Source: Octadecabacter sp.
Lineage (GTDB): Bacteria; Pseudomonadota; Alphaproteobacteria; Rhodobacterales; Rhodobacteraceae
DNA length: 44,735 nucleotides
Assembly (NCBI GenBank): GCA_028825445.1
Contig: JAPKAD010000017.1
Location: 1-44,735 of the forward strand
Direction: 5' to 3'
A program made the translations under genes and the position numbers. A model generated the notes under the pieces. That model did no database searches. It saw nothing but the letters and a program-made list of their open reading frames with translations, and had not been told where the DNA came from. Of the stretch, positions 29,213-43,893 are shown piece by piece. How positions within the stretch are numbered: position 1 is the first letter of the stretch; each line of letters opens with the position of its first letter.

Positions 29213-30338
29213 GGCTTGTTGCAGATCTTTGCTGCGCGGTGCACCAAGGTCAGGTTTGGGCCCCAAGGGCGTTGTTGCATGGATGCGGCCAGTTCTTTTA
29301 GGAATCCCATCTCCTGATCGATTGGACGCTGCATAAGCTCAAAGCCTCAGTGTGTCATAAATTCGAGAATAAGCGATATCGTATTGCAAACTGGTCACCC
29401 TACAATGAAAGCCCGCGTCAGCGTGGCAATGTGACGGCTGATTAGGCCCTGAGGTTGAGGCCGAATGGCGTTCGGAACGGCGCAAGACGCGAGGCGGCCA
29501 GCTAGTGTATTCTGACCTAGCGATCACGGTGTGTCTAATGCTTGGCATGGTTTATAAGAAACCTCTGCGCCAAACTGAAGGGTTTGAACGGGGCTTTGTA
29601 AGGCTAATGAGGCTGGATGTTTTTGTGCCTGAATTCTCTACATTTTCACGTCGTTGCGCACAGCTGATCCTGCTGATGAAATCGCGGGATGAGAAGGATG
29701 GCCCAATACACCTTTTAGTGGACAGCACCGGCCTGAAGATCTTTGGCGAAGGAGAGTGGTTGCAGAACAAGCATAAAACAAAAAGCCAAGCGTAAGTCTT
29801 AGCACAAGCTGAACTTGGGGTTTGAGCTTTCGACTGGCGATAACGTTTGTTCTGATCTTACCTAGGAGGACGTGAGTGATACAACTACCTTGCCTGATCT
29901 TCTCGAACAGATTGATGAATATGGTGCTTATGATGGTGACCCCATTAACACCCTACTCGAGTGGTACTTTGGTTTCTGTGTCAAGATCATCATCCCGCCT
30001 CCAAATAACGCTGTTCTAGGCCCGACCGCGGACCATGATCCACCCCTGCAGGACCAGCATATTGCCGCAATACGCACCGGAGGTCAGATGGCCTGGAATA
30101 TAAGTAGCAGATACAATCTGCGCTGTCGCGGCGAGACCCAAATGGGCCGTTGGAAGATGGTCAAAGGCCCCAAGTTGAAAGTATGGAGCTTTCTTACCCA
30201 CAAGACAAATGCAAGGATCGGTGCCCCCATTCTCAACAAAATGACCGAACTCTGACGCTCCGTGTTCTAGCCAGTCGCTTATCTTGAATCATTGGTAAGG
30301 GCGCGCTCAACCCAACGGATGATCTGTGCAACAAAGCC
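29213..30338 (+). mobile_element. Decayed IS5-family insertion sequence with both ends
   Basis: The element is bounded by GGCTTGTTGCAGATC (29213-29227) and, inverted, GATCTGTGCAACAAAGCC (30321-30338), imperfect terminal repeats. Between them the plus strand encodes a broken IS5-family transposase. An N-terminal piece (about 29357-29446: RIANWSPYNESPRQRGN, then a stop) is followed by 29505-29795 (YSDLAITVCLMLGM, KPLRQTEGFERGFVRLMRLDV, LLVDSTGLKIFGEGEWLQNK). After a frame change, 29872-30255 reads DTTTLPDLLEQIDEYGAYDGD, IIPPPNNAV, MAWNISSRYNLRCRGETQMGRWK and ILNKMTEL. At least two frame changes or stops and a shortened centre make it inactive. It lies between mdeB and a DUF1295-like gene. Confidence 0.85.
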
Positions 30339-32102: not shown

Positions 32103-32880
32103 GGTGTTGTCAAACTAATGTAAGTTCGTCTCAGTTGGCCGCCAAACGTCGAAATCTATGCTGAACAAAGCTGGCGCCGCTTGGAAAGAGCGGCGTCACG
32201 GTTGAGCTTGAAGTTGTCATGTGAATAAAGGTGACGCTCCTGATTAAAATGGCTGTGAACCGAGGCGTGGACGCAGATAAAACTCTGCAGGCTTTGAATG
32301 CGTTTAAAGCGCAACATGGCCCGTTCCCACCTTTTAAATGGCTGATGTGAATTCTCAGCGCGGTTGTTGAGCCAGCGGCCAGTTTCCTGCCGATCGGCGG
32401 TGCCAGTGACCTTCATCGCAGCGCCTTGGGAAAGCAGCTTGTCGGTGACAAGCACCTCAGCTTTGCCGTGGCGTTTCATAGGTCTTCTGAGTAACTTAAA
32501 CGCTGCTTTACCGTTAAGGCGCATCGTCACCTAGCTTTCGAGCACCTCGCACTCATGATCCACAGCCCGCCAAAGATAGTGCGTCTCACAGTTAATCTTT
32601 ACGAAAACCTCATTGAGATGCCACAGCCAGTTTGAGTAGGCGTGCATTTGTTTAACGCGCGTCTGGCGTATCTCAGCCGCAAACAGCAAGCCAAATCTAT
32701 TCCACCAGAAACGGACTGTTTCGTGGCTTATGTCAGTACCGCACTCATGCAGTAGGTCCTCCACATGTCGAAGTGAAAGTGGAAAACGGACATACATCAT
32801 CATGGTCAAGCGGATAATTACGAGAGACCTCTTAAAATAGTACAAAGAGCTGCGTCTGATAACCCGTCTATGCCAAGTCG
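32103..32880 (-). mobile_element. Decayed IS6-family insertion sequence (copy 1)
   Basis: The minus strand from about 32880 to 32156 encodes a nearly full IS6-family transposase: VRFPLSLRHVEDLLHECGTD, ISHETVRFWWNRFGLLFAAEI, NEVFVKINCETHYLWRAVDHE, RWLNNRAENSHQPFKRWERA and HASVHSHFNQERHLYSHDNF. A TAG at 32531-32533 breaks the frame where relatives read LESYVT, and the first catalytic Asp (usual WHLDEVF) is Asn (WHLNEVF), so it is dead. The end GGTGTTGTCAAAC begins at 32103; I could not find the other terminal repeat near 32880. A truncated relative in the same orientation lies at 43988-44150, on the far side of the phn operon. The stretch 32881-33226 holds no gene I can support. Confidence 0.85.
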
Positions 32881-33226
32881 TGGCTCTGCCAGCCTCAAGT
32901 CAGTTTCTTCTGACAGTGCCCTCGCGCTGCTTCATCGCTCAGTTATAATTCGACCAGTTCCTGGTCTTGTATACGGTAGTTATACAGCTGCTCATTATCC
33001 AAACTTATCACTCTGGATTTACAGCATAAATTCCTCCTTCCTATTTGTGCATTAAAGCCGTCTGTGGCCGTACCACAAATTAAGAATTCTCAACTTGGTT
33101 GAGTCAGCCTATCTCAAGTTATTGGGGTATGTCCGATCCAGTTCAGGCTGTTGGAACTGATGTGAAAATACTTAACTTATAAAGTCTTATTTGAAATGCT
33201 ATTTTTAGGCGTAGGTTCTTCTCACA

Positions 33227-33243
33227 TGTCATAAATCTTTGAT
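33227..33243 (+). promoter_or_regulatory. Possible Pho box upstream of the phn operon
   Basis: TGTCATAAATCTTTGAT resembles the PhoB consensus of alphaproteobacteria (two TGTCAT-like 7-mers spaced 11 bp apart). The first half (TGTCAT, 33227-33232) is exact; the second (TTTGAT) is weaker. It lies about 50 bases before phnF, and phosphate-starvation control of phn operons is well known. Moderate confidence. Confidence 0.45.
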
Positions 33244-33261
33244 CTTTTTATTCTAAGTGTG

Positions 33262-33277
33262 ATTCATCCGAATGAAT
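33262..33277. promoter_or_regulatory. Palindromic PhnF operator candidate, site 1
   Basis: ATTCATCCGAATGAAT has 6-bp arms around CCGA, 11 bases before the chosen phnF start. Its reverse complement recurs with 15 of 16 matches at 39663-39678, just before phnC. Two copies, each abutting the first gene of a phn transcription unit, point to autoregulation by the GntR-type repressor PhnF (inference). Confidence 0.65.
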
Positions 33278-33288
33278 TAAGAAGACAG

Positions 33289-34008
33289 ATGAAAAATACT
33301 AGTTGGAAATTGATCCGTGACGCCATCGAAAAAGATATTTCGGAAGGGCAGTTGCTTCCAGGGGAGAAAGTCCCGACTGAACCAGAGCTTGTTGAGCGCT
33401 ACGGGGCAGGTCGCCACTCAGTTCGTCGCGCAATCTCCGATCTGGCCAAGCAGGGCATGCTAAGCGTGGAGCAGGGGCGTGGTACATTTGTGGGTGAGCA
33501 ACTTTTACTGCAATATAGTTTAGGAAGGCGCACGCGACTGCGCAGAAATCTTGGTGATCAAGTATTCGATATTTCAGGATATTTGTTGGCTGTGGATATC
33601 ATTGAAGCGCCTGAAAGGGTTCGAAAAGCTTTAAACTTGGCTGCTGGCGCAGCAGTAAGTTCTGGTAAGCGGATAACATATGCAGATCAAATTCCAATCG
33701 CTTTTGGGTCGGCCTTCCATGACGTCAATCGCTTTCCCTGTTTCGCAGATCGTCGAGCTGTTTTCGGTTCTGTGACTGAAACCTACAAATCTTACGGGAT
33801 TGAGGATTACTTACGTTCAGAAACAACTCTCCATTCTCGGCAAGCGAAAAAAGCTGAGGCCAAAACTCTGCGCCAACACCCAGATTTGCCTGTAACTATC
33901 ATCAGTGCGGTTGATGTCTTGCCTGATGGGACACCAATTTCTTTTTCTGAGGTAATTTGGTCGGCTGCCAGAGTTAAATTCACGATTTCTGGAAATGACA
34001 ATGAATAG
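33289..34008 (+). CDS. phnF: GntR-family (HutC subfamily) repressor of phosphonate metabolism
   Basis: A 239-residue GntR regulator. The winged HTH is at about residues 5-70 (EKDISEGQLLPGEKVPTEPE, ERYGAGRHSVRRAISDLAKQ, VEQGRGTF). A UTRA effector domain follows, from about residue 85, with DVLPDGTPISFSEVIWSAAR at the end. The ATG at 33289 is preferred to a GTG at 33259 because the protein then starts in the family-typical place and a 16-bp palindrome is left free upstream. It is first in the phn operon and its 3' end overlaps phnG. Likely represses phn genes in the absence of a phosphonate or phosphate-ester signal. Confidence 0.88.
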   Translation: MKNTSWKLIRDAIEKDISEGQLLPGEKVPTEPELVERYGAGRHSVRRAISDLAKQGMLSVEQGRGTFVGEQLLLQYSLGRRTRLRRNLGDQVFDISGYLLAVDIIEAPERVRKALNLAAGAAVSSGKRITYADQIPIAFGSAFHDVNRFPCFADRRAVFGSVTETYKSYGIEDYLRSETTLHSRQAKKAEAKTLRQHPDLPVTIISAVDVLPDGTPISFSEVIWSAARVKFTISGNDNE

Positions 34009-34417
34009 TCATGGCCAACTTCTGACTGTATTGTCACGTTCCGATCCTGATAGGATCAAAGCGTTTGCGGTGTTTTTAATCGAGCAGATTGGCGAAATTA
34101 AAGTGATCGAAAGTCGTACTGGTTTAGTTATGTTACCTATGCTGGACACAGCTGGTGGCACCGCGTTTCATCTTGGCGAAGTCTTAATGAGCGAAGCGCA
34201 CATTCGGAACGGTGAACTGGAGGGATATGGGTTGCGTTGCGGACGCGATTTGGAAGCATCAATGGCGATGGCTCTGGTTGATTTAGCAATCAGGCGTGAC
34301 ATCGAAAAACCTGCATGCATAGCGTTCTGCGCCAAGGAGGCGACAGCGCAAGCATCAGAAGATGACAGCACTTTGCGTCAAATAGAAGCCACCCGCATTA
34401 ATATGGAGACCTTCTGA
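33995..34417 (+). CDS. phnG: C-P lyase core complex subunit PhnG
   Basis: A 140-residue PhnG, of the usual size. Family features are DPDRIKAFAVFLIEQIGEIK, RTGLVML, GGTAFHLGEVLMSEAHIR and GLRCGRDLEASMAMALVDLA. PhnG joins PhnH, PhnI and PhnJ in the core complex; with PhnH, PhnI and PhnL it helps attach the phosphonate to ATP in place of adenine. The sequence departs from the common form GLVMVRGRAGGTGAPFNLGE at several places. The start overlaps the end of phnF by 14 bases (an ATG at 34001 is also possible) and its stop overlaps the phnH start. Confidence 0.88.
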   Translation: MTMNSHGQLLTVLSRSDPDRIKAFAVFLIEQIGEIKVIESRTGLVMLPMLDTAGGTAFHLGEVLMSEAHIRNGELEGYGLRCGRDLEASMAMALVDLAIRRDIEKPACIAFCAKEATAQASEDDSTLRQIEATRINMETF

Positions 34418-34953
34418 TGCTGAATACACCTGTCCAAGGTGTTGATGAGGCCGCAGCAAACAAAACGTTTGAGGCTTTGCTATGGGCGCTGAGTCGTCCG
34501 GGCTTGGCAAGTAATCTGTCTGCAGCAAGTGACGAAGCGATTATTGACGCCTTGATCGATCGCGAGTGTCGAGTTTACTCCGCTGACCCACAGCTAATGT
34601 CTAATATTTTATGCAGTGGGGCAACTGTGTCTGAAGTTAAGGATGCTGACCATGTCTTTCTAGGGGCTTTGAGAGACCTTGCATCTCTTGATGACATTTC
34701 CAAAGGGTCTGCACTTTATCCCAATGAAGGGGCTACGGTGGTCCTGCGGGTCGCACTAAATAAGGGACGTAAAATCCGGCTCAGTGGCCCTGGTGTAAAA
34801 ACAGTCTTAGATATTCAGATTGCTGGTCTACCAGATGGTTTTTGGCAAAACCGTGCAGAAATGTTCTGCTATCCTGCTGGATTTGATTTGTTCCTGCGCG
34901 ACGGTCGTCAGGTCATTGGAATTCCACGTTCAACCATAGTCGAGGTGCTCTGA
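34417..34953 (+). CDS. phnH: C-P lyase core complex subunit PhnH
   Basis: A 178-residue PhnH. Typical landmarks are FEALLWALSRPG near the N-terminus, SALYPNEGATVVLRV, IRLSGPGVKT, GLPDGFWQNRAEMFCYPAGF and DLFLRDGRQVIGIPRSTIVE. PhnH is a structural core-complex subunit related to PLP-fold proteins but without the cofactor. It overlaps phnG and phnI by one base each, indicating translational coupling through the operon. Confidence 0.9.
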   Translation: MLNTPVQGVDEAAANKTFEALLWALSRPGLASNLSAASDEAIIDALIDRECRVYSADPQLMSNILCSGATVSEVKDADHVFLGALRDLASLDDISKGSALYPNEGATVVLRVALNKGRKIRLSGPGVKTVLDIQIAGLPDGFWQNRAEMFCYPAGFDLFLRDGRQVIGIPRSTIVEVL

Positions 34954-36011
34954 TGGCTTATGTCGCGACACGTGGAGGGGAACGGGCTATCAAACAATCT
35001 GAACGATTGTTCCGCGCTGCTATGGGAAAAATTGACGCTGCACGTGTCACGGAAGTAAAGCAGGCCTTACCCTATCTGGTTGACCGAGTGATGGGCGAAG
35101 CCTCTCTTTATGACTTAGATCTTGCCGCTTTAGCGCTGGCTCAGACGGGGGGTGAGCTTTACGAAGCGGTTCTGTTGTTGCGCGCATGGCGCACGACACA
35201 GCCGCGTTTGTGTGTGGCAGAGCCTGTTCAGCAGCAGGACTTGTTCACCCATCGCCGGATTTCTGCAGCATTCAAAGATATACCGGGGGGGCAAGTTTTG
35301 GGGCCAACACCCGATTATGCACACCGTATTTTGGCGACAGACGTCTTGGAAGGCACTCCCTTTGTACCTGAACCGGTTGAACCAGGTGCAAAGCCATCAC
35401 CCGCTTACCAGCCGTCAGTTAGTGCATGGCAGGCCAAAAACGATCTTGTTGATCTACCCAAGCCTGAATCATTGCATGGTAATGACATCCCTGACTTAAC
35501 GCGAGAGCCATTATTATTTCCTTCAAAACGCGCTCATACCCTGCAAAGCCTTGCGCGTGCTGAAACAGGTGGAGTGTTGGCTTTGGGTTATGCGGCGATG
35601 CGTGGTTACGGCCAGGCACACCCCACTGTGAATGAACTACGATTGGCTGAGGCCGAGGTTGTGGTTAAACATCCCAATGGCACAGCTTTTTCGGCGGGTC
35701 GTGTGAAAATTTCACAGGCTGAAGTTGTCTCAAAGCAAGGTGAAAAGCTGGGGCTTGGGTTTGCTGCAACGATGGGCTGGAATGAGGTCAAGTGCATCTC
35801 AGCAGCAACACTTGATCTGAATTCTAAGGGTGCGCCAAAGGGTACGCCCACCGAAGAAGAGTTCTTCCTCTATCACACTGAAGGGGTCGAAAGTTCGGGC
35901 TTCTGCATCCACTTTAAACTGCCTCATTATGTGACGTTCCAGTCATCGCTGGACGCGATGCGCGACGCCAAAGCCAAGAGTGTTGATGTCGCAAAGGAAC
36001 CAGTAAAATGA
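34953..36011 (+). CDS. phnI: C-P lyase core complex subunit PhnI (nucleosidase)
   Basis: A 352-residue PhnI, the normal length. It opens with MAYVATRGGERAIKQSERLF as in most PhnI proteins and contains ALALAQTGGELYEAVLLLRAWR, RISAAFKDIPGGQVLGPTPD, LARAETGGVLALGYAAMRGY and THTTHPTVNELR-like AHPTVNELRLAE. PhnI displaces the purine base from ATP or GTP and so starts the attachment of the phosphonate to ribose. It overlaps phnJ by four bases (ATGA). No missing motif noticed. Confidence 0.92.
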   Translation: MAYVATRGGERAIKQSERLFRAAMGKIDAARVTEVKQALPYLVDRVMGEASLYDLDLAALALAQTGGELYEAVLLLRAWRTTQPRLCVAEPVQQQDLFTHRRISAAFKDIPGGQVLGPTPDYAHRILATDVLEGTPFVPEPVEPGAKPSPAYQPSVSAWQAKNDLVDLPKPESLHGNDIPDLTREPLLFPSKRAHTLQSLARAETGGVLALGYAAMRGYGQAHPTVNELRLAEAEVVVKHPNGTAFSAGRVKISQAEVVSKQGEKLGLGFAATMGWNEVKCISAATLDLNSKGAPKGTPTEEEFFLYHTEGVESSGFCIHFKLPHYVTFQSSLDAMRDAKAKSVDVAKEPVK

Positions 36012-36922
36012 GCCTAAAGTCTTTAACCAAGCCATGGCAATCAATGAGCTATGGCTTTCTTGATCCTTCCGCTAAGCGTGAGTTGCGTCGCAAGATGCTG
36101 AAATCAGTCGCAGTGCCGGGGTGCCAGATGCCATATGCCAGCCGGGAAGTGCCGATGGCGCGGGGTTGGGGAACGGGCGCATTACAAGTGTCACTGACGC
36201 TTCTGAATCCGCAGATGTGCGTAAAAGTCATCGACCAAGGAGCTGATGACAGTGTTAACGCAGCCTCGATCCGGCGGTTTCTTGCGCGGGTGTCGGGTGC
36301 TCCAACAACACTGGATACGTTAGAGGCGCATCTGATCCAGTCCCGCCACCGCATTCCTGAGGAGTTTTTGCGCGAAGATCAGATACTAGTGCTCCAAGTG
36401 CCTAATCCTGAACCTTTGCGCTCGGTACAGCCTAATATGTCCATTGCTAGGCAGATGCATGCGGATGCGGATTATGGACGGATGTGGTTACAGCTCTACG
36501 AACAGATCGTGCGATCAGGCCGGATCATGCAAGGAGCAAGCTACCCTTCCATGGTAAATGGACGCCATGTAATGACACCCTCGCCGATCCCGCGCTGGGA
36601 CGTCCCCAAGCTTAACATGTCAAAACACCTTACAATTCTTTCAGCGGGCCGCGAAAAACGCATTTTTGCCGTACCACCCTACACCCGCGTAGAACCGCTG
36701 GTTTTTGACGATGTGCCCTATCAGGTTGAAGATCATGGAGCGCTGACCTGTAAGCGCTCGGGAGCAAAAGGCTTCTTTATGAATGAAATACCGCAAGATG
36801 ACGGTACCTCCGCTTTTGAGGTGTCTGATAGCGAGTATGGCGTCAAGTCGATCCGCCAGCGTGATGGAGAGGCAGTGAACTTGGGTGGCACCTGGTACAA
36901 ACATGGGGAGATGCCCAAATGA
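36008..36922 (+). CDS. phnJ: PhnJ, C-P lyase catalytic subunit, lacking three of four expected cysteines
   Basis: A 304-residue PhnJ, the radical enzyme that splits the C-P bond of ribose-methylphosphonate 5-phosphate. The family frame is clear: VAVPGCQMPYASREVPM with the catalytic-type Gly38 (Gly32 in E. coli), RGWGTGALQV, VIDQGADDSVNAASIRRF, RHRIPEEFL, SAGREKRIFAVPPYT and FDDVPYQVE. E. coli has Cys241 and Cys244 (PCAICG) and Cys266 (VCSD), which bind the 4Fe-4S cluster, and the thiyl Cys272 (TDYC). Here the aligned places are Cys248 (LTCKRSG), Ser251, Val272 (EVSD) and Gly278 (SEYG). Only three cysteines exist in the whole protein (39, 71, 248). The frame is intact around the site, so this is not a frameshift. 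It overlaps phnI and phnK by four bases each. Whether it is active is an open question. Confidence 0.9.
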   Translation: MSLKSLTKPWQSMSYGFLDPSAKRELRRKMLKSVAVPGCQMPYASREVPMARGWGTGALQVSLTLLNPQMCVKVIDQGADDSVNAASIRRFLARVSGAPTTLDTLEAHLIQSRHRIPEEFLREDQILVLQVPNPEPLRSVQPNMSIARQMHADADYGRMWLQLYEQIVRSGRIMQGASYPSMVNGRHVMTPSPIPRWDVPKLNMSKHLTILSAGREKRIFAVPPYTRVEPLVFDDVPYQVEDHGALTCKRSGAKGFFMNEIPQDDGTSAFEVSDSEYGVKSIRQRDGEAVNLGGTWYKHGEMPK

Positions 36923-37716
36923 GCATGGTGATAGATGCCCCACGGATTGTGACCACCAAACCACTGTTGGTCGTGCGGGGCGTATCAAAAACTTACGGCA
37001 AAGTAGTAGCGCTGCATGATGTTGCAGTCACCGCATATCCAGGTGAAGTGCTTGGGATCGTCGGCGAAAGTGGCTCAGGTAAGTCTACGCTATTGCGGAT
37101 GATGAACCTTGAGGAAACTCCAGAATTTGGCAGCTACACGCTTGATCTGCCGGATTTAAGGGGTAATCTTTTTAATCTCGATCGGTTCGCTCGACGCATG
37201 CTGTGTGCAACTCGGATCGGGATAGTCTATCAGAACCCACATCTGGGATTATTGATGACACATTCCAGCTCTGGCAACGTGGCGGAGCGTCTACTGATTG
37301 CAGGAGAGCGCAGTTTTGCGACCTTGCGCGCCAAGGCTACAGATGCACTGGATGCTTCAGAATTTCCATTAGACAGGCTTGATGCGCCGCCCATAGAGTT
37401 ATCGGGAGGTATGCAGCAGCGTGTACAATTAGCCAAGGCCATCGCGTTGGAACCAGCCCTGCTGTTGTTAGATGAGCCGACGACGGGCCTTGATGTTTCG
37501 GTGCAGGCGCTTGTGCTCGATACGTTAAAGCGGCTGCAACAAGGCCGTCAAATTACGATGGTCGTTGTCAGCCATGATCTGGGTGTGATCCGCACGCTTG
37601 CGGATCGTGTTATGGTTATGCGGAGTGGCCGGGTGGTGGAAGAAGGGTTGGTCGACCAGATCTTCCAAGATCCGCAACACGCTTACACACAACAATTGGT
37701 ACATGCAAAATTATGA
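36919..37716 (+). CDS. phnK: C-P lyase system ABC-type ATPase PhnK
   Basis: A 265-residue ABC ATPase of the PhnK type. Walker A is GESGSGKST (about residues 51-59), signature LSGGMQQRVQLAKAIAL, Walker B LLLLDEPTTGLD, and the H-loop is SHDLGV. PhnK docks on the PhnGHIJ core and is needed in vivo for phosphonate use. The C-terminal QDPQHAYTQQLV is typical of the family. It overlaps phnJ and phnL by four bases each. Confidence 0.92.
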   Translation: MSMVIDAPRIVTTKPLLVVRGVSKTYGKVVALHDVAVTAYPGEVLGIVGESGSGKSTLLRMMNLEETPEFGSYTLDLPDLRGNLFNLDRFARRMLCATRIGIVYQNPHLGLLMTHSSSGNVAERLLIAGERSFATLRAKATDALDASEFPLDRLDAPPIELSGGMQQRVQLAKAIALEPALLLLDEPTTGLDVSVQALVLDTLKRLQQGRQITMVVVSHDLGVIRTLADRVMVMRSGRVVEEGLVDQIFQDPQHAYTQQLVHAKL

Positions 37717-38432
37717 CCTGTGTTCTTGAAATAAGTGGCCTTACCAAAGGCTTTATGATGCATCATCTTGGGAGCTTTTTACAGGCTTTTGAAGATATAT
37801 CCTTTAGCGTTGAGGCCGGTGAGTTTTTGTTGCTGAAGGGTGCGAATGGGGCAGGAAAATCCACCCTTCTACGCGCTCTTTACCGCAGCTATCTGGTGCA
37901 AAGTGGTAAGATCAGATTTCACTCAGAGCATGGTGTGATTGATCTAGCGGTTGCTGCTGACGTGGATATTGCACATCTACGCCGGACCGAGATCGGCTTT
38001 GTTACTCAGTTCCTTGTGGCACGCCCACGAGTGAGTGCCGAGGCCGTGGTTGCAGAACCCCTACGCCTCAGCGGCGTTGAAGGAGTAGCGGCCCTAAAAC
38101 AGGCCCGCTACTGGCTGGAAGCTTTCGGCGTGAAGCCTGAGCTTTGGAAGGCATATCCTACTACATTTTCGGGTGGGGAACAGCAAAAGGTTAATTTAGC
38201 TCGCGCATTGATACGTCCACAAAAACTGTTGTTGTTGGATGAGCCAACAGCCTCGCTGGATGCCAATGCGCGTGCTGCACTTTTGTCACGCCTGGCAGAT
38301 CTGAAATCTGGTGGAACGGCGATGATCGGGGTGTTTCATCATCCTGGTGATGTTGAAAAACTTATAGACCGCGTGATTAACCTTACGCCAAGTGTGACAA
38401 CAGCAGAGGAACGTGAAGATGTGGCTGTCTAA
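37713..38432 (+). CDS. phnL: C-P lyase system ABC-type ATPase PhnL
   Basis: A 239-residue ABC ATPase of the PhnL type. Walker A is GANGAGKST, and the stretch LRRTEIGFVTQFLVARPRVS is diagnostic for PhnL. The signature is FSGGEQQKVNLARALI, Walker B LLLLDEPTASLD, with FHHPGDVEKLIDRV near the end. PhnL stacks on PhnK in the C-P lyase complex and takes part in making the ribose-phosphonate triphosphate. It overlaps the phnM gene by 14 bases. Confidence 0.92.
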   Translation: MTCVLEISGLTKGFMMHHLGSFLQAFEDISFSVEAGEFLLLKGANGAGKSTLLRALYRSYLVQSGKIRFHSEHGVIDLAVAADVDIAHLRRTEIGFVTQFLVARPRVSAEAVVAEPLRLSGVEGVAALKQARYWLEAFGVKPELWKAYPTTFSGGEQQKVNLARALIRPQKLLLLDEPTASLDANARAALLSRLADLKSGGTAMIGVFHHPGDVEKLIDRVINLTPSVTTAEEREDVAV

Positions 38433-39594
38433 TTTCAAACTGGTACTTGCGGACAGAATTGTTCCCAATGGCTCTGTGCGCGTTGAAAACAGCCTGATTG
38501 CCGAGATTGCCGAAACTGAAGTTGAGGGTGGCGTAAATGGGGCTGGATTGGAACTCTTTCCCGGCTTAATCGATATGCATGGTGACATGATTGAGGTTGA
38601 GTTAGAACCGCGTCCTCGAGTCGATTTCCCAATTGAGATTGCTTTGAACCATCTTGATGCGCGGCTGGCCGCTGCTGGCGTCACAACTGCATATGCAGCC
38701 GTCTCTTTTTCGCGAGATGCTGCTGAGGGCCAGCGCAGGTCTTTTGACCATACAAGCAGAGTGATTCAAGGATTTTATGATTTTAAATCCACCTGCAAGG
38801 TTGATCATAAAATTCATGCTCGTTTTGACATAACTTACGAGAATGCTGTGCCGGTGCTGGAGGCATTGCTATCGAAGGGCCTCGTTGATCTGGTTTCTTT
38901 GATGGATCACACGCCTGGACAAGGTCAGCATAGCAATATTGAGAAGCATATAAAAGTTAAGGCGACTCAATTGGGTGTATCGGAACCTGAGGCCCGCCAA
39001 ATTGTATTAACTAAAATCGCCAAGGATTCTCGGCCGACCGAGGTCATTTTGCAAAATATGATTGCGGTTTCTGAATTATGTAAACACTACAGTGTGGCAT
39101 TGGCAAGCCATGATGATGATACCGAAGATAAAGCAAAACTGATGTCTAAAATTGGTGCGGTTATCTCAGAATTTCCTGTAACATTGCAAGCTGCCCGCGC
39201 TGGAGTTTCAAAAGGCATGATGGTCGCAATGGGCGCGCCAAATGCGATGCGGGGTCAGAGTTATTCGGGCAATTTATCTGCGCGAGACGCACACGCACAA
39301 GGACTACTTCATATCCTTGCTGCGGATTATCACCCAGCTGCAATTTTGCCTGCAATTCGCATATTGGGACAAACTGATCCAGATGGTCTTGTTGGAGCGA
39401 CGCGCCTTGCTACATTGAACCCGGCTAGCGCTTTGGGACTGAAGGATCGAGGTGAGATCGCCGTCGGAAAGCGTGCTGATCTTATAGCGGTCGCAGAAGG
39501 TACGCGAGTGGTCTGCAGCTATATTGCGGGCCAAATGGTCTATTCTGATGGTTCTTTATCGGAGGCCCCCCAGCAGCAAAAGGCAATTGCCTAG
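38419..39594 (+). CDS. phnM: Alpha-D-ribose 1-methylphosphonate 5-triphosphate diphosphatase
   Basis: A 391-residue amidohydrolase-fold PhnM, which removes pyrophosphate from ribose-phosphonate 5-triphosphate to make the PhnJ substrate. The metal-site motif is GLIDMHGDMIEVELEPRPRV; the run AAAGVTTAYAAVSFSRDA, then HARFDITYENA, SLMDHTPGQGQ, ALASHDDDTEDK and AMGAPNAMRGQSYSGNLSAR are family landmarks. ATG 38419 is preferred to a GTG at 38413 because GAGGA then sits 9 bases upstream. It is the last gene of the first phn unit, with 88 bases before phnC. Confidence 0.9.
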   Translation: MWLSNFKLVLADRIVPNGSVRVENSLIAEIAETEVEGGVNGAGLELFPGLIDMHGDMIEVELEPRPRVDFPIEIALNHLDARLAAAGVTTAYAAVSFSRDAAEGQRRSFDHTSRVIQGFYDFKSTCKVDHKIHARFDITYENAVPVLEALLSKGLVDLVSLMDHTPGQGQHSNIEKHIKVKATQLGVSEPEARQIVLTKIAKDSRPTEVILQNMIAVSELCKHYSVALASHDDDTEDKAKLMSKIGAVISEFPVTLQAARAGVSKGMMVAMGAPNAMRGQSYSGNLSARDAHAQGLLHILAADYHPAAILPAIRILGQTDPDGLVGATRLATLNPASALGLKDRGEIAVGKRADLIAVAEGTRVVCSYIAGQMVYSDGSLSEAPQQQKAIA

Positions 39595-39682: not shown

Positions 39683-40483
39683 ATGTCAAAAAACTTAGTT
39701 CTGTCTTGTGTAACCCGCAACTTTGGGCAGACACTTGCGGTTGATAATGTATCGCTTGAAATTTCGCCGGGACAATTTGTTGGTGTTATTGGACGATCCG
39801 GTGCAGGCAAATCGACTATGTTGCGCTTGATAAACCGTCTTACAGATCCCAGCGCAGGGGCTATTACGTTTGAAGGGTGCGATATTACAAAGCTCAAAGG
39901 CAAGGAACTGCGTGAATGGCGTCGTGATTGCGCAATGATCTTTCAGCAGTTTAATCTTGTTGAGCGATTGGACGTCCTAACCAATGTTTTAATTGGCAGG
40001 ATCGCAGATCATAGTTTTTTAACGTCTATGGCGATGCGGTTTACAGATTCTGAGCGAGCGATGGCCATTCAGGCGCTGGATCGGTTTGGATTAGTCCCTC
40101 AAGCACTACAGCGTGCAGGCACGCTTTCTGGCGGCCAGCAGCAGCGGGTGGCGATAGCTAAGGCTTTGGTGCAAAACCCAAAAATTATGCTGGCGGATGA
40201 ACCAATAGCCTCTTTAGATCCCATGAATGCTACCTTGGTTATGGATGGTTTAAAATCAATCAATATGGACGATGGAATTACGATTCTTGTGAACCTCCAC
40301 ACCCTCGACACCGCGCGCGCCTATTGTGACCGTATCATCGCTATGCGCGAAGGCCGCATCTACTTTGATGGGTCAGCAGCCCAGCTGACTGATGATGTGG
40401 TGCGCGATATATACGGCACCCAAGGACTAACAAACTTTAATGAAGCTGTCACATCCACCCAAAAGTTTGCTGTGACAGCTTAA
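39683..40483 (+). CDS. phnC: Phosphonate ABC importer ATPase PhnC
   Basis: A 266-residue ABC ATPase. Walker A is GRSGAGKST (about residues 38-46); the next segment [24 protein letters not shown] is characteristic of Phn[42 protein letters not shown] and [18 protein letters not shown] complete the fold. It energises phosphonate uptake with PhnD and the two PhnE permeases. It begins a second phn unit with its own operator-like palindrome. Confidence 0.95.
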
Positions 40484-40510: not shown

Positions 40511-41410
40511 ATGCGTATGTTAATGACCACGGCTTTAGTGGCTCTTATTTCAGGACCATCATTGGCCGAAAACTGGAGAGACGACTATCAAGTTGTCAAG
40601 TTTGGCATCCTGTCAGGCGAAAACGAGAGAGATCGGATTGCACGCTACACGCCGTTTGAACAATATCTAGAACAAGAACTGGGTGTTGAAGTCGAAATTT
40701 TTACTGCTGGCAATTACGACGGTGTTATTCAGGCGTTGGCCGCTGATCAAATCGAATTCGCGTTTATGGGCTCCTCCGCTTACGCTGCGGCATATACAGC
40801 AACTGATGGTGGTGTAATGCCGTTGGTATCGCGCGTGCAAAATGATGGCTCTACGGGTTACTTTTCTATTCTGGTTACGCGCTGTGACAGTGATCTTACC
40901 GATCTGGCATCACTTGAGGGAAAGATATTGGCTTTTGCTGACCCTGATTCAACGTCGGGTTACGCCGTACCCTTCTATAACCTGTCACAAGAGATCACCC
41001 CTGACCTGTACTTTTCCGCAACCCCATTTTCTGGTTCGCACGAATCTGGTGTGCAGGGTGTAGCCAACGGAACGTTTGACGCTGCTGCAACGTATCAGAC
41101 GAATGAAACTAGTGGCATTGTGCAGCGGATGGTCGAAAAGGGCATGGTTGATGAGAATACAATTTGTCCGATCTGGCAGTCGCCAGAGATTACGTCAGGT
41201 CCTTTGACCGCACGCTCCAACCTGCCGTCAGGTTTGATTGCGGCCATGACTACCGCAGTCATGGAAATCCCCGTAAAGGATCCTTTCGCGTTCAAGGAAA
41301 TGTCGGGTGGTGACGAGTCAACCCAACGGAGTTGGATTGAGGTCGATCATGAGCGTTATCAATGGATATTGGACATGCGCGATTGGTTGAAGAAACAACG
41401 TCGTTCATAA
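40511..41410 (+). CDS. phnD: Periplasmic phosphonate-binding protein PhnD
   Basis: A 299-residue binding protein. The signal peptide MRMLMTTALVALISGPSLA is probably cleaved after SLA (about residue 19). The mature protein has FGILSGENERDRIARYTPFE, VEIFTAGNYDGVIQALAADQ, FAFMGSSAYAAAY and FADPDSTSGYAVPFYNL, all typical of PhnD; the last motif forms part of the phosphonate pocket. It delivers phosphonates to the PhnE permeases. An AGGGA precedes the start, and a strong intrinsic terminator follows the stop. Confidence 0.95.
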   Translation: MRMLMTTALVALISGPSLAENWRDDYQVVKFGILSGENERDRIARYTPFEQYLEQELGVEVEIFTAGNYDGVIQALAADQIEFAFMGSSAYAAAYTATDGGVMPLVSRVQNDGSTGYFSILVTRCDSDLTDLASLEGKILAFADPDSTSGYAVPFYNLSQEITPDLYFSATPFSGSHESGVQGVANGTFDAAATYQTNETSGIVQRMVEKGMVDENTICPIWQSPEITSGPLTARSNLPSGLIAAMTTAVMEIPVKDPFAFKEMSGGDESTQRSWIEVDHERYQWILDMRDWLKKQRRS

Positions 41411-41424
41411 AAAATACGATGAAA

Positions 41425-41452
41425 GGATGGGCAATCAAGCCCATCCTTTTTT
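41425..41452 (+). terminator. Intrinsic terminator between phnD and phnE
   Basis: GGATGGGC (41425-41432) pairs perfectly with GCCCATCC (41439-41446) around AATCAA, and six T follow at 41447-41452; flanking AAA/TTT can extend the stem to 11 bp. It sits 14 bases after the phnD stop and before phnE. It should end most transcripts after phnD, leaving partial read-through into the permeases, so that binding protein exceeds permease (inference). Confidence 0.88.
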
Positions 41453-41468
41453 GCTTTCAGGACAGACA

Positions 41469-42398
41469 ATGACAGCAACAGCTAATTTACCCGCAAGTTC
41501 AAAAGTTATTAATGATTTCGAAATGACTTTTTCCGCTGAACGGACCCGAGCTCGGAGAACGTGGTTGGCCGTTAGTACTGTATTCTTGTTGCTTTTTTTA
41601 TTCAGCGCTTGGTTGGGAGATTTCTTTAAAACTACGCAAGTTTCTTTGCCTGATGGGTCACGCGAATGGCGTTGGATTATCTCGGCAGGCATTCCACGTC
41701 TTGGTGAGTACATTTCAAAGACAATTCCAGTGTTGCATTGGGATAGCTTTGGCGCAGATTTCGCCGAATGGTTCTGGAGATGGAAGACATGGATGTGGCT
41801 CTTGCTTGAAACGGTTCTTATCGCTTTTATGGCGACAGTTTTAGGTGTGATAGGTGGCTTTTTGTTATCTTTCCCAGCCTCACGCAATCTTGCGCCAAAC
41901 CAAGCTGTGCTTTGGGTGACGCGCCGCTACCTTGAAATCGCGCGTACTGTGCCAGAACTGGTCTGGGCGTTAATTTTTGTATTTTGCTTTTCAGTTGGAC
42001 CATTGGCTGGCGTTATTGCAATTGGTCTGCACTCTGTGGGGTCACTGGGCAAACTTTATTCGGAAGTGAATGAAAATATCGATATGCGCCCGCTCGATGG
42101 TGTTACAGCAGCAGGTGGAACATGGTTTGACCGCATCCGTTATGGTGTTGTGCCGCAAGTGCTACCAAATATTATCAGCTATACCTTACTTAGGTTTGAG
42201 ATCAACGTTCGCGCTTCATCTATCATCGGATACGTGGGTGCGGGAGGTTTGGGCCAAGAGTTCCGTATTGCGTTGAGCTTTCAGGAATACACCGATCTCT
42301 CTGCTTTATTCGTAATCATATTTATTACAGTGATCATTATCGACTATGGATCTGAAAAACTGCGGCACCATATTATTGGATTTGAGGAACAGACATGA
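41469..42398 (+). CDS. phnE: Phosphonate ABC importer permease PhnE (first)
   Basis: A 309-residue inner-membrane permease with about six hydrophobic segments. The binding-protein-dependent transport motif is present as DGVTAAGGTWFDRIRYGVVPQVLPNI, and SSIIGYVGAGGLGQEFR near the end is typical of PhnE. The start at 41469 (MTATANLPASS) is chosen because the longer frame from 41427 would translate the terminator hairpin. Its stop overlaps the start of the second permease gene (ATGA). Two different PhnE subunits are common in alphaproteobacteria. Confidence 0.93.
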   Translation: MTATANLPASSKVINDFEMTFSAERTRARRTWLAVSTVFLLLFLFSAWLGDFFKTTQVSLPDGSREWRWIISAGIPRLGEYISKTIPVLHWDSFGADFAEWFWRWKTWMWLLLETVLIAFMATVLGVIGGFLLSFPASRNLAPNQAVLWVTRRYLEIARTVPELVWALIFVFCFSVGPLAGVIAIGLHSVGSLGKLYSEVNENIDMRPLDGVTAAGGTWFDRIRYGVVPQVLPNIISYTLLRFEINVRASSIIGYVGAGGLGQEFRIALSFQEYTDLSALFVIIFITVIIIDYGSEKLRHHIIGFEEQT

Positions 42399-43252
42399 GC
42401 GTTACTGTGGCTGATATTCGCGCCGCCAAAGACCGCGTACCCTTGGCATTTCGAGATCCACCCAAAGTCTTTTGGCGCAAACGAATTCTTTGGGCGCTTT
42501 TCGTCTGTTTGTTTGCTTGGTCGCTGTATGATTTCAACATTACTCCTGAACGAATTTGGACTGGGCTGGGTCGTTTAGGTCGGGTGCTGTCATTCATGTT
42601 CCCACCTTATATCTGGAAGACATGGGTAGAATTTTCTGAAATTTTGAACGGCTTGGGGGAGACCCTTGCCATAGCCTTTCTAGGTACTGTTCTGGGAGCT
42701 ATTGTAGCTTACCCTTTGTCGCTCCTTGGTGCAAAAAATATCAACCGGATCACATTCCTGCGTCATGGTGTACGTCGTGGCTTTGACTTAATTCGCGCGT
42801 TTGAGACTTTGATACTAGCGCTTATTTTCATCCGTGCGTTTGGTTTGGGGCCTTTAGCTGGCGTTCTCGCTATTGCGGTCAGTGAGATTGGGACTTTTGC
42901 AAAACTCTTCTCAGAAGCGCTTGAAAATACGTCTGAGAAACCGATTGATGGTGTGCGAGCATCAGGTGGCTCGAGAATGCAGCAGATCCGTTTTGCAATC
43001 TCACCACAGGTCAACCCGGTCATCCTTTCGATCCTTTTGTATAACTTTGAATCTAATGTCCGATCAGGAACCATTCTTGGGATTGTGGGTGCTGGTGGTA
43101 TTGGCTTTCTGCTGTCAGACAGGATAGCAGCGTACCGATGGGACGAGGCATGGTCGATCATCTTTCTGATCATCGCTTTGGTCTATGTAATTGATTGGCT
43201 GAGCAGTCTTATCAGGGCGCGCTTGATCGGCACCTGGAACGGCCCAAAATGA
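42395..43252 (+). CDS. phnE: Phosphonate ABC importer permease PhnE (second)
   Basis: A 285-residue permease homologous to the first PhnE, with about six hydrophobic segments. Motifs are [64 protein letters not shown] and [22 protein letters not shown]. It would pair with the other PhnE to form the channel. It overlaps the preceding and following genes by four bases each. Confidence 0.93.
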
Positions 43253-43893
43253 GTAGTGCAGGTCACAAACTCCGCCTTTCAGAGGCACCTACAGTCCACC
43301 CGGATGCGGACGTAACTGAATGCGAGCTGGGTATGTGGACCGAGGTAGGCAAGGGCACGATGATGAAGGCCTCACAGATGGGGGACTATTCTTACATCAC
43401 TCAGGATTGTCATGTTGTCTGGACCACGATTGGCAAATTTTGCTCTATTGCTAATGCGACACGCATCAACCCGGGTAACCACCCAACATGGCGCGCTGTT
43501 CAGCATCATTCGGTCTACCGCGCTGAGGCTTATGGCTTGGGCTGTGATGATCACGACTTCTTTGAATGGCGAAAGGATCACTGGGTGACCATTGGGCACG
43601 ATGTCTGGATTGGCCATGGGGTGACTATTACAGCAGGGGTCTCAATTGGTACTGGCGCAGTGGTTGGGGCAGGGGCTGTGGTCACACGCGATGTAGAACC
43701 TTACACCGTGATCGGTGGCGTGCCTGCACGGTTCATTAAACGTCGATTCACCAATATCCAAGCCGAGGCGTTGGAGCACATCGCTTGGTGGGACTGGAGT
43801 CGAGACGCATATAAAGCTGCTCTTCCTGATATCCGAGAACTGGTAATTGATGAATTTATTAAAAAGTATTGTGAAACATCAAATCACATCTGA
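43249..43893 (+). CDS. Left-handed beta-helix (hexapeptide) acetyltransferase of the phosphonate cluster
   Basis: A 214-residue hexapeptide-repeat acyltransferase. The beta-helix repeats run from about residue 20 to 165 ([65 protein letters not shown] being the last coils, quoted by position), with the usual [10 protein letters not shown] end. The insert [20 protein letters not shown] is typical of the xenobiotic/chloramphenicol acetyltransferase-like proteins found beside phn genes. It may acetylate aminophosphonates or detoxify a by-product; the substrate is unknown. The start at 43249 overlaps the phnE stop (ATGA), so it is the last gene of the operon. Confidence 0.85.

Follow-up and report, generated by a model that had tools for sequence, protein, structure and literature searches.

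Our analyses show that the carbon-phosphorus (C-P) lyase operon at the end of a 44,735-nucleotide stretch of Octadecabacter sp. DNA (contig JAPKAD010000017.1, assembly GCA_028825445.1; hereafter the window) codes for a PhnJ of a deep, cysteine-poor lineage that evolves under purifying selection in Rhodobacterales and Hyphomicrobiales. Because the parts that handle ribose, phosphate and metal are kept under strong selection while three ligands of the iron-sulfur (Fe-S) cluster are gone, a cluster-free step at the metal site is favoured. We tentatively propose, with a probability of roughly 0.45, a distinct C-P lyase lineage that would do without the radical S-adenosylmethionine (SAM) cluster and break the bond at phosphorus at the PhnI/PhnJ metal site. 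The cysteine-poor complex probably works differently from the radical C-P lyase, and another reaction for its PhnJ, one of the options raised by an earlier sequence-only reading, is plausible.

Replacement of three cluster cysteines

The window PhnJ is a complete frame of 304 amino acids that matches PF06007 at 385.6 bits over residues 12-280 (cut-off 25). In the alignment with Escherichia coli PhnJ (4xb6/7z15), Cys248 stands for Cys241, whereas Cys244, Cys266 and Cys272 are replaced by Ser251, Val272 and Gly278, with a one-residue deletion between the changed places; the radical-site glycine, Gly32, is kept as Gly38. The sequence-only reading had described the same replacements, deletion and glycine in an intact frame, and the alignment agrees with it on each.

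36008..36922, +: phnJ without three of four Fe-S cysteines (PF06007, alignment)
36749-36751, 36758-36760, 36821-36823 and 36839-36841, +: PhnJ codons C248, S251, V272 and G278
36119-36124, +: PhnJ G38-C39 codons

To find relatives, genome contigs were queried with six peptides taken from the window PhnJ, and the best 80 of 95 were kept. Two of these peptides lie in or near the changed region, so that the search, with this cut, favours look-alikes; unbiased PF06007 surveys give the same two PhnJ score classes. The kept relatives are 76-89% identical to the window PhnJ and are titled as Rhodobacterales and Hyphomicrobiales, except for some named to class or phylum only. The motif is C-x-R-S in 77 and C-x-R-T in 3 of the 80 loci, all of which lack cysteine at the other two places. 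We further compared 87 distinct variants with 69 canonical sequences, dropping matches shorter than 250 amino acids. Position 248 is Cys in 87/87 variants, the C241 equivalent being the only one of the four cysteines kept; position 251 is Ser (84) or Thr (3), position 272 Val (57), Ile (13), Leu (12) or Ala (5), and position 278 Gly (84) or Ala (3). By contrast, all four cysteines are present in 69/69 canonical proteins. Gly38 occurs in 87/87 variants, as does the arginine at position 250 in the gained motif C-x-R-[ST]. The near-fixed differences between the two types are C244 to Ser/Thr, C272 to Gly/Ala, Tyr33 to Cys, Pro45-Tyr46 to Ala-Arg, and Arg at 250. Given the complete frame and the same replacements across relatives, we reject a frameshift or assembly error. 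An alternative way of binding the cluster, also suggested from the sequence alone, finds no support for a 4Fe-4S centre inside PhnJ, because C248 is the sole cysteine common to the sampled lineage. A structure model of the window PhnJ has a mean predicted local distance difference test score of 61, and for this reason serves for fold membership only, with no distances drawn; its best PDB match is 7z19_D (E 8e-27, template modelling score ~0.6).

A deep lineage under purifying selection

In a tree built without the Fe-S region, a 100/100 branch separates 24 sampled variants from 54 canonical rows. The branch has a high length of 5.1, and among the canonical rows L231 stands out as very long too. 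The Nei-Gojobori ratio of nonsynonymous to synonymous substitutions (dN/dS) of phnJ has a median of 0.17 and a maximum of 0.37 over 1380 pairs, which share ancestry and in some cases are the same genome fetched twice; it falls to 0.03-0.08 in the ten closest pairs listed. Medians for other genes of the operon are 0.19 (phnI), 0.15 (phnK) and 0.29 (phnM).

These values bear on the explanation that the operon is decaying and has lost its function, or that the sequence is an artefact. Such an origin would account for the three missing ligands, and broken transposase-like frames do lie upstream (by eye), but the same replacements in 80/80 kept loci, the deep tree branch and a dN/dS far below 1 make it highly improbable and lead us to reject recent decay for the lineage. 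Of the two options first considered, a separate PhnJ lineage is thus borne out by the best 80 of 95 relatives, two trees and the closest pairs, while a simple loss of C-P lyase activity is unsupported, the lineage being under purifying selection.

PF06007 matches 65/385 genomes in an even sample of the class and 78/378 in an even sample of the phylum, with a variant-scoring copy in 2 and 5 genomes, respectively. Among 394 sampled genomes of the window's family, 203 have some PhnJ match, fragments included, and 24 carry the variant. Six of 18 other genomes of the window's genus have a PhnJ, in all cases 49-50% identical to the query, and none of the 18 has the variant. No description of the lineage appeared among the matches listed in the open-licence PubMed Central literature, subscription papers being outside this scope.

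A conserved active site with additional thiols

All 87 variants and all 69 canonical sequences keep R107, H108, Q124, G47-T50 and G32 of PhnJ. The E. coli structure, as described in PMC9947105, shows the ligand, a ribosyl cyclic phosphate, in contact with R107, H108, Q124 and loop 47-50. PhnI H219, H316, H328 and H333 are found in 85/85 variant-operon sequences, H219, H328 and H333 forming the metal site. In the window, PhnK and PhnL keep intact Walker A, signature and Walker B motifs.

Two cysteines have been gained near this pocket. PhnI Cys318, which precedes the metal histidine H320 by two residues, occurs in all 129 alphaproteobacterial variant rows and in 0/89 four-cysteine rows, in a motif-based count where overlapping loci are counted repeatedly and which a second Thermus locus did not fit. 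PhnJ Cys39, in the place of Tyr33 and next to Gly38, is present in 87/87 members of the first variant set. Outside PhnJ, the conserved cysteines are PhnI C318 (85/85), PhnH C51 (75/80), PhnK C96 (77/87), PhnM C223 (78/80) and PhnG C108 (52/81).

The new thiol that adjoins a metal histidine in each of the 129 rows and the fully conserved histidine site could be read as signs of a metal- and oxygen-dependent C-P cleavage, in which iron would replace zinc at the PhnI/PhnJ histidine site of these aerobes and, with the thiols near, act oxidatively. This speculative scheme seems improbable, given that the metal ligands themselves are unchanged and that Thermus thermophilus HB8 has neither thiol.

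Coexistence with canonical PhnJ

A second, canonical phnJ, which the sequence-only reading had suggested looking for, does exist in the host genome (G000:C57). It is 49% identical to the variant, has all four cysteines and adjoins phnI, phnK and phnL. Such company is the rule: 45 of 48 genomes chosen among those behind the 80 loci have another full-length PhnJ at a canonical score (at least 467 bits), two have a broken canonical copy (G030, G048) and one has none (G065), 30 canonical copies having been fetched and the remaining ones assigned by score. In the family sample, canonical PhnJ occurs in 21/24 variant genomes (broken in G835) versus 179/370 without the variant (p = 1.2e-4, uncorrected for relatedness); the variant-only genomes are G523, G742 and G780 (79% complete). 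The two phnJ genes lie within about 22 kb of each other in 10/48 genomes, the canonical one being broken in one of these. Gene order, read in examples picked for the closeness of both genes, shows a second canonical-type operon near the variant, besides the main canonical one, in G064 and G897.

This coexistence favours the main rival explanation, namely that the complex is still a radical C-P lyase that receives its cluster or radical in trans, from the canonical PhnJ of the same cell or through an inter-subunit cluster made of C248 and cysteines of other subunits. The conservation of Gly32 and of the whole substrate site also agrees with it. Nevertheless, we judge it unlikely. The stand-alone genomes speak against it, as G065, G523 and G742 show no other PhnJ within the limits set by genome completeness (two of the three are of one genus), although another activator may act in them; C248 is the only constant cysteine of PhnJ and the other conserved ones are scattered over the subunits; and PhnI C318 is absent in Thermus HB8.

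One locus shows the reverse case. Rhizobium sp. CG5 carries a third, very divergent PhnJ (L231:8434, +) that keeps all four Fe-S cysteines and has changed substrate-site residues, with Gln for His108 and Val for Thr50.

Downstream steps

In the variant-only genomes G065, G523 and G742, an above-cut-off PhnN and DUF1045, proposed as the cyclic phosphodiesterase of the pathway (PMC8235418), both lie 3-8 kb from the variant phnJ. PhnN scores above cut-off anywhere in the genome in only 1/16 PhnJ-less genomes. Both genes are also near the variant operon in G897, and a Mesorhizobium plasmid with cysteine-poor PhnJ has them in a single run, G-H-I-J-K-L-M-DUF1045-phnN. Given this proximity in stand-alone variants, the product probably still enters the ribosyl-phosphate route to phosphoribosyl diphosphate (PRPP), and the end of the variant route is probably unchanged, with ribosyl cyclic phosphate and PRPP. 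The window operon itself has neither PhnN nor a cyclic phosphodiesterase; both stand beside the canonical operon C57 of the host genome, where DUF1045 scores 226.5, below its cut-off of 248.95. PhnP was rejected as the downstream enzyme, with no TIGR03307 match above cut-off in any of 15 genomes, host genome included. In Phaeobacter, Pho-regulated C-P lyase proteins are listed together with DUF1045 (PMC10132767), which has no bearing on the variant.

A single above-cut-off phnN in each of five genomes with both operons (G000, G019, G028, G055, G088), the high co-occurrence and the frequent neighbourhood with the canonical operon would suit a silent or helper complex, one that binds and ribosylates its substrate as a sensor, a reservoir or a feeder of ribosyl-phosphonate to the canonical complex. 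We consider this rather unlikely in view of the stand-alone variants with phnN nearby and of ATPase motifs and metal-site residues that stay invariant under purifying selection.

Additional arrangements of these genes were seen. In G064 (C103:104022-104974 and 116875-118093), a broken DUF1045 and a partial phnN match lie next to the variant phnM, and a further DUF1045, split in two, is found together with an intact phnN 12-13 kb off. In G457 (C6:72084-73276), phnN and DUF1045 are adjacent in a genome without PhnJ match.

Relatives in Thermus and haloarchaea

A search of a plasmid collection placed 8 Thermus and eight alphaproteobacterial records at the top of its list (59-79% identity). The PhnJ proteins of Thermus thermophilus HB8 pVV8 and of SNM1-1, both read, miss the same three cysteines; three haloarchaeal ones that were read keep all four and share the Ala-Arg loop with the variants. 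A 67-row tree keeps the 32 cysteine-poor rows together, which were assigned by the missing C244 and are all devoid of the other two; this absence of ligands 244, 266 and 272 in every sampled row, from Alphaproteobacteria to Thermus, argues for the cluster-free reading. Support is low (83/33) for the node that unites Thermus and Alphaproteobacteria, which leaves room for one cysteine loss or two; on the haloarchaeal side, a program warning flagged long branches that meet. The stretches read around both Thermus operons have no annotated phnN; close to each operon is a gene for a metallophosphoesterase of the TIGR00282 family. The sequence-only reading had foreseen neither this reach to Thermus, nor Cys39 and Cys318, nor that this genome and those of most relatives would also have a canonical phnJ. 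It is conceivable, though we hold it with less than even confidence, that a cluster-free multi-subunit enzyme extends from Thermus to Rhodobacterales and acts on substrates of its own in cells that also run the radical version.

A possible cluster-free mechanism

If the complex does lack the cluster, PhnCDE would import a phosphorus compound, which PhnG-H-I-L would join to ribose from ATP and whose triphosphate PhnM would trim, as their homology suggests. In the PhnI/PhnJ pocket holding ribose, 5'-phosphate and metal, the bond at phosphorus would then be broken with no SAM-derived radical, by a metal-assisted displacement with the ribose 2'-OH as candidate attacker; in Alphaproteobacteria, the thiols PhnI Cys318 and PhnJ Cys39 would perhaps assist. 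The product would still be a ribosyl cyclic phosphate, converted towards PRPP by PhnN and a cyclic phosphodiesterase, putatively DUF1045 in Alphaproteobacteria and perhaps the TIGR00282-family enzyme in Thermus. As the simplest guess, substrates would carry a group that leaves without a radical, as activated phosphonates or phosphate esters may do.

Several points weigh against this proposal. Simple esters need no route so costly, and a non-radical enzyme need not keep Gly32 invariant. The thiols are not universal: HB8 has no PhnI Cys318 and has Tyr at the place of Cys39, and five early-branching members (L233, L257, L260, L261, L263) also keep this Tyr, which indicates that Cys39 was gained later. 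On the downstream side, variant-only G780 shows neither a true PhnN nor DUF1045 in profile searches. DUF1045 also occurs in 7/16 PhnJ-less genomes, so that only its position is informative. The PhnJ of G742 is identical to that of L087, and G742 and G065 are both Haematobacter, which leaves two independent cases rather than three; the link between PhnN and the variant has p of about 0.02 for two cases and 0.004 if three are counted.

Operon organization and regulation

The host genome measures 3.2 Mb and is judged 88% complete. Profile searches of the window frames give the operon order phnF-G-H-I-J-K-L-M-C-D-E-E-hexapeptide transferase, which contains, as in the relatives, all of PhnGHIJ, PhnK, PhnL and PhnM.

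33226..33243, +: Pho-box-like direct repeat before the operon, weak (11/14 positions)
33259..34008, +: phnF, GntR/UTRA regulator, first gene of the operon (TIGR02325 above cut-off)
33995..34417, +: phnG, divergent (profile matches)
34417..34953, +: phnH (profile matches)
34953..36011, +: phnI, metal-site histidines H223, H320 and H325 kept (profile, alignment)
35904-35906, +: PhnI lineage-specific Cys318, 2 residues ahead of H320 (alignment)
36919..37716, +: phnK, ATPase with intact motifs (profile match)
37713..38432, +: phnL, ATPase with intact motifs (profile match)
38413..39594, +: phnM, ribosyl-phosphonate triphosphate (RPnTP) diphosphatase (NF011988 above cut-off)
39683..40483, +: phnC, transporter ATPase (TIGR02315 above cut-off)
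40511..41410, +: phnD, binding protein (profile matches)
41427..42398, +: phnE, permease 1
42395..43252, +: phnE, permease 2
43249..43893, +: hexapeptide transferase of phosphonate operons (TIGR03308; start set by eye inside frame 43195-43893)

PhnG and PhnM had both been called divergent; this holds for PhnG (56.1 bits, cut-off 89) but hardly for PhnM, which reaches 443.3 bits with NF011988 (cut-off 369) and 383.4 with TIGR02318 (390.55). The nearest solved relatives of PhnD are PhnD and PtxB-type binding proteins; its alignment keeps an STSG loop, and we claim no substrate from it. A second radical-SAM gene in the operon was rejected as a candidate, none being noticed as recurrent among neighbourhood gene clusters, which derive from homemade gene calls with antisense frames included and are annotated in part, with no radical-SAM profile searched.

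In variant operons, phnF is usually co-directional and first, with Mesorhizobium AR07 as an exception; in the fetched canonical examples it is mostly divergent from phnG. Repeats were scored over 14 positions of the Pho-box consensus. At least 11/14 is reached upstream of phnF in 56/79 operons, 41 of these repeats lying 26-37 nucleotides before the start, against a background at score 11 of 4.2% for shuffles and 4.1% for random pieces. These repeats would fit use under phosphate starvation.

By eye, broken transposase-like frames lie 5' of the operon at 32156-32845 and 29505-30255 of the window and fit the idea that this genus received the operon by horizontal transfer. Directly 5' of the variant operon in Maritalea is a frame (L169:13044-14699) that by eye resembles a sulfatase or phosphonate monoester hydrolase. 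A sugar-phosphate isomerase/epimerase-like gene adjoins phn operons of both types in 10/30 stretches compared (L010:15905-16717 and similar), and is also found in haloarchaea and Thermus HB8 (L254, L255, L256).

Implications for C-P lyase studies

A distance of about 30 Å is reported between the putative Fe-S site of C-P lyase and Gly32, and one of about 31 Å between Gly32 and the metal ion in the open state; how the three connect is unexplained (PMC9947105). By retaining the pocket, the metal histidines and Gly32 without three of the Fe-S ligands, a natural lineage sets these parts apart and opens their connection to testing.

In addition, methane formation from methylphosphonate is traced with phnJ (K06163) as marker gene (PMC8774927), a use concerned by the fact that 24 of the 203 PhnJ-matching genomes in the family sample carry the cysteine-poor form, which occurs in some soil, marine and hot-spring bacteria. 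Records titled Marivita sp. SBSPR1 and SBSPR2 (L055, L019), names used in that same paper, carry it. The SBSPR1 genome is described there with a full methylphosphonate pathway (PMC8774927). In the SBSPR1 metagenome-assembled genome (G048; L242 and L243), the canonical phnJ, inspected by eye, lacks its middle stretch and runs into phnL-like sequence, which leaves the cysteine-poor copy as the only full-length phnJ match there.

Comparison with known systems

The variant resembles the E. coli C-P lyase, PhnGHIJ with PhnK/PhnL (4xb6, 7z15-7z19), in its gene order G-H-I-J-K-L-M, PhnJ fold, ATPase motifs and ribose, 5'-phosphate and metal-site residues. It differs by the loss of C244, C266 and C272, Ala-Arg instead of P45-Y46, Cys instead of Tyr33 in most members, PhnI Cys318 and a PhnJ identity of 48%. 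The canonical alphaproteobacterial operons of the same genomes, such as C57 with DUF1045 and PhnN beside it, resemble the variant in their core subunits and differ by a PhnJ with all four cysteines and by the usual orientation of phnF. The clusters of Thermus thermophilus pVV8 and pTthSNM1-1b resemble the variant, with a PhnJ ~60% identical, C-x-R-T and no other Fe-S cysteine, although they have Tyr at the Cys39 place and HB8 PhnI is devoid of Cys318. Finally, the haloarchaeal operons of Haloarcula, Haloferax and Natribaculum have the Ala-Arg loop in common with the variant and group with it when the tree is rooted at its midpoint, yet keep all four cysteines.
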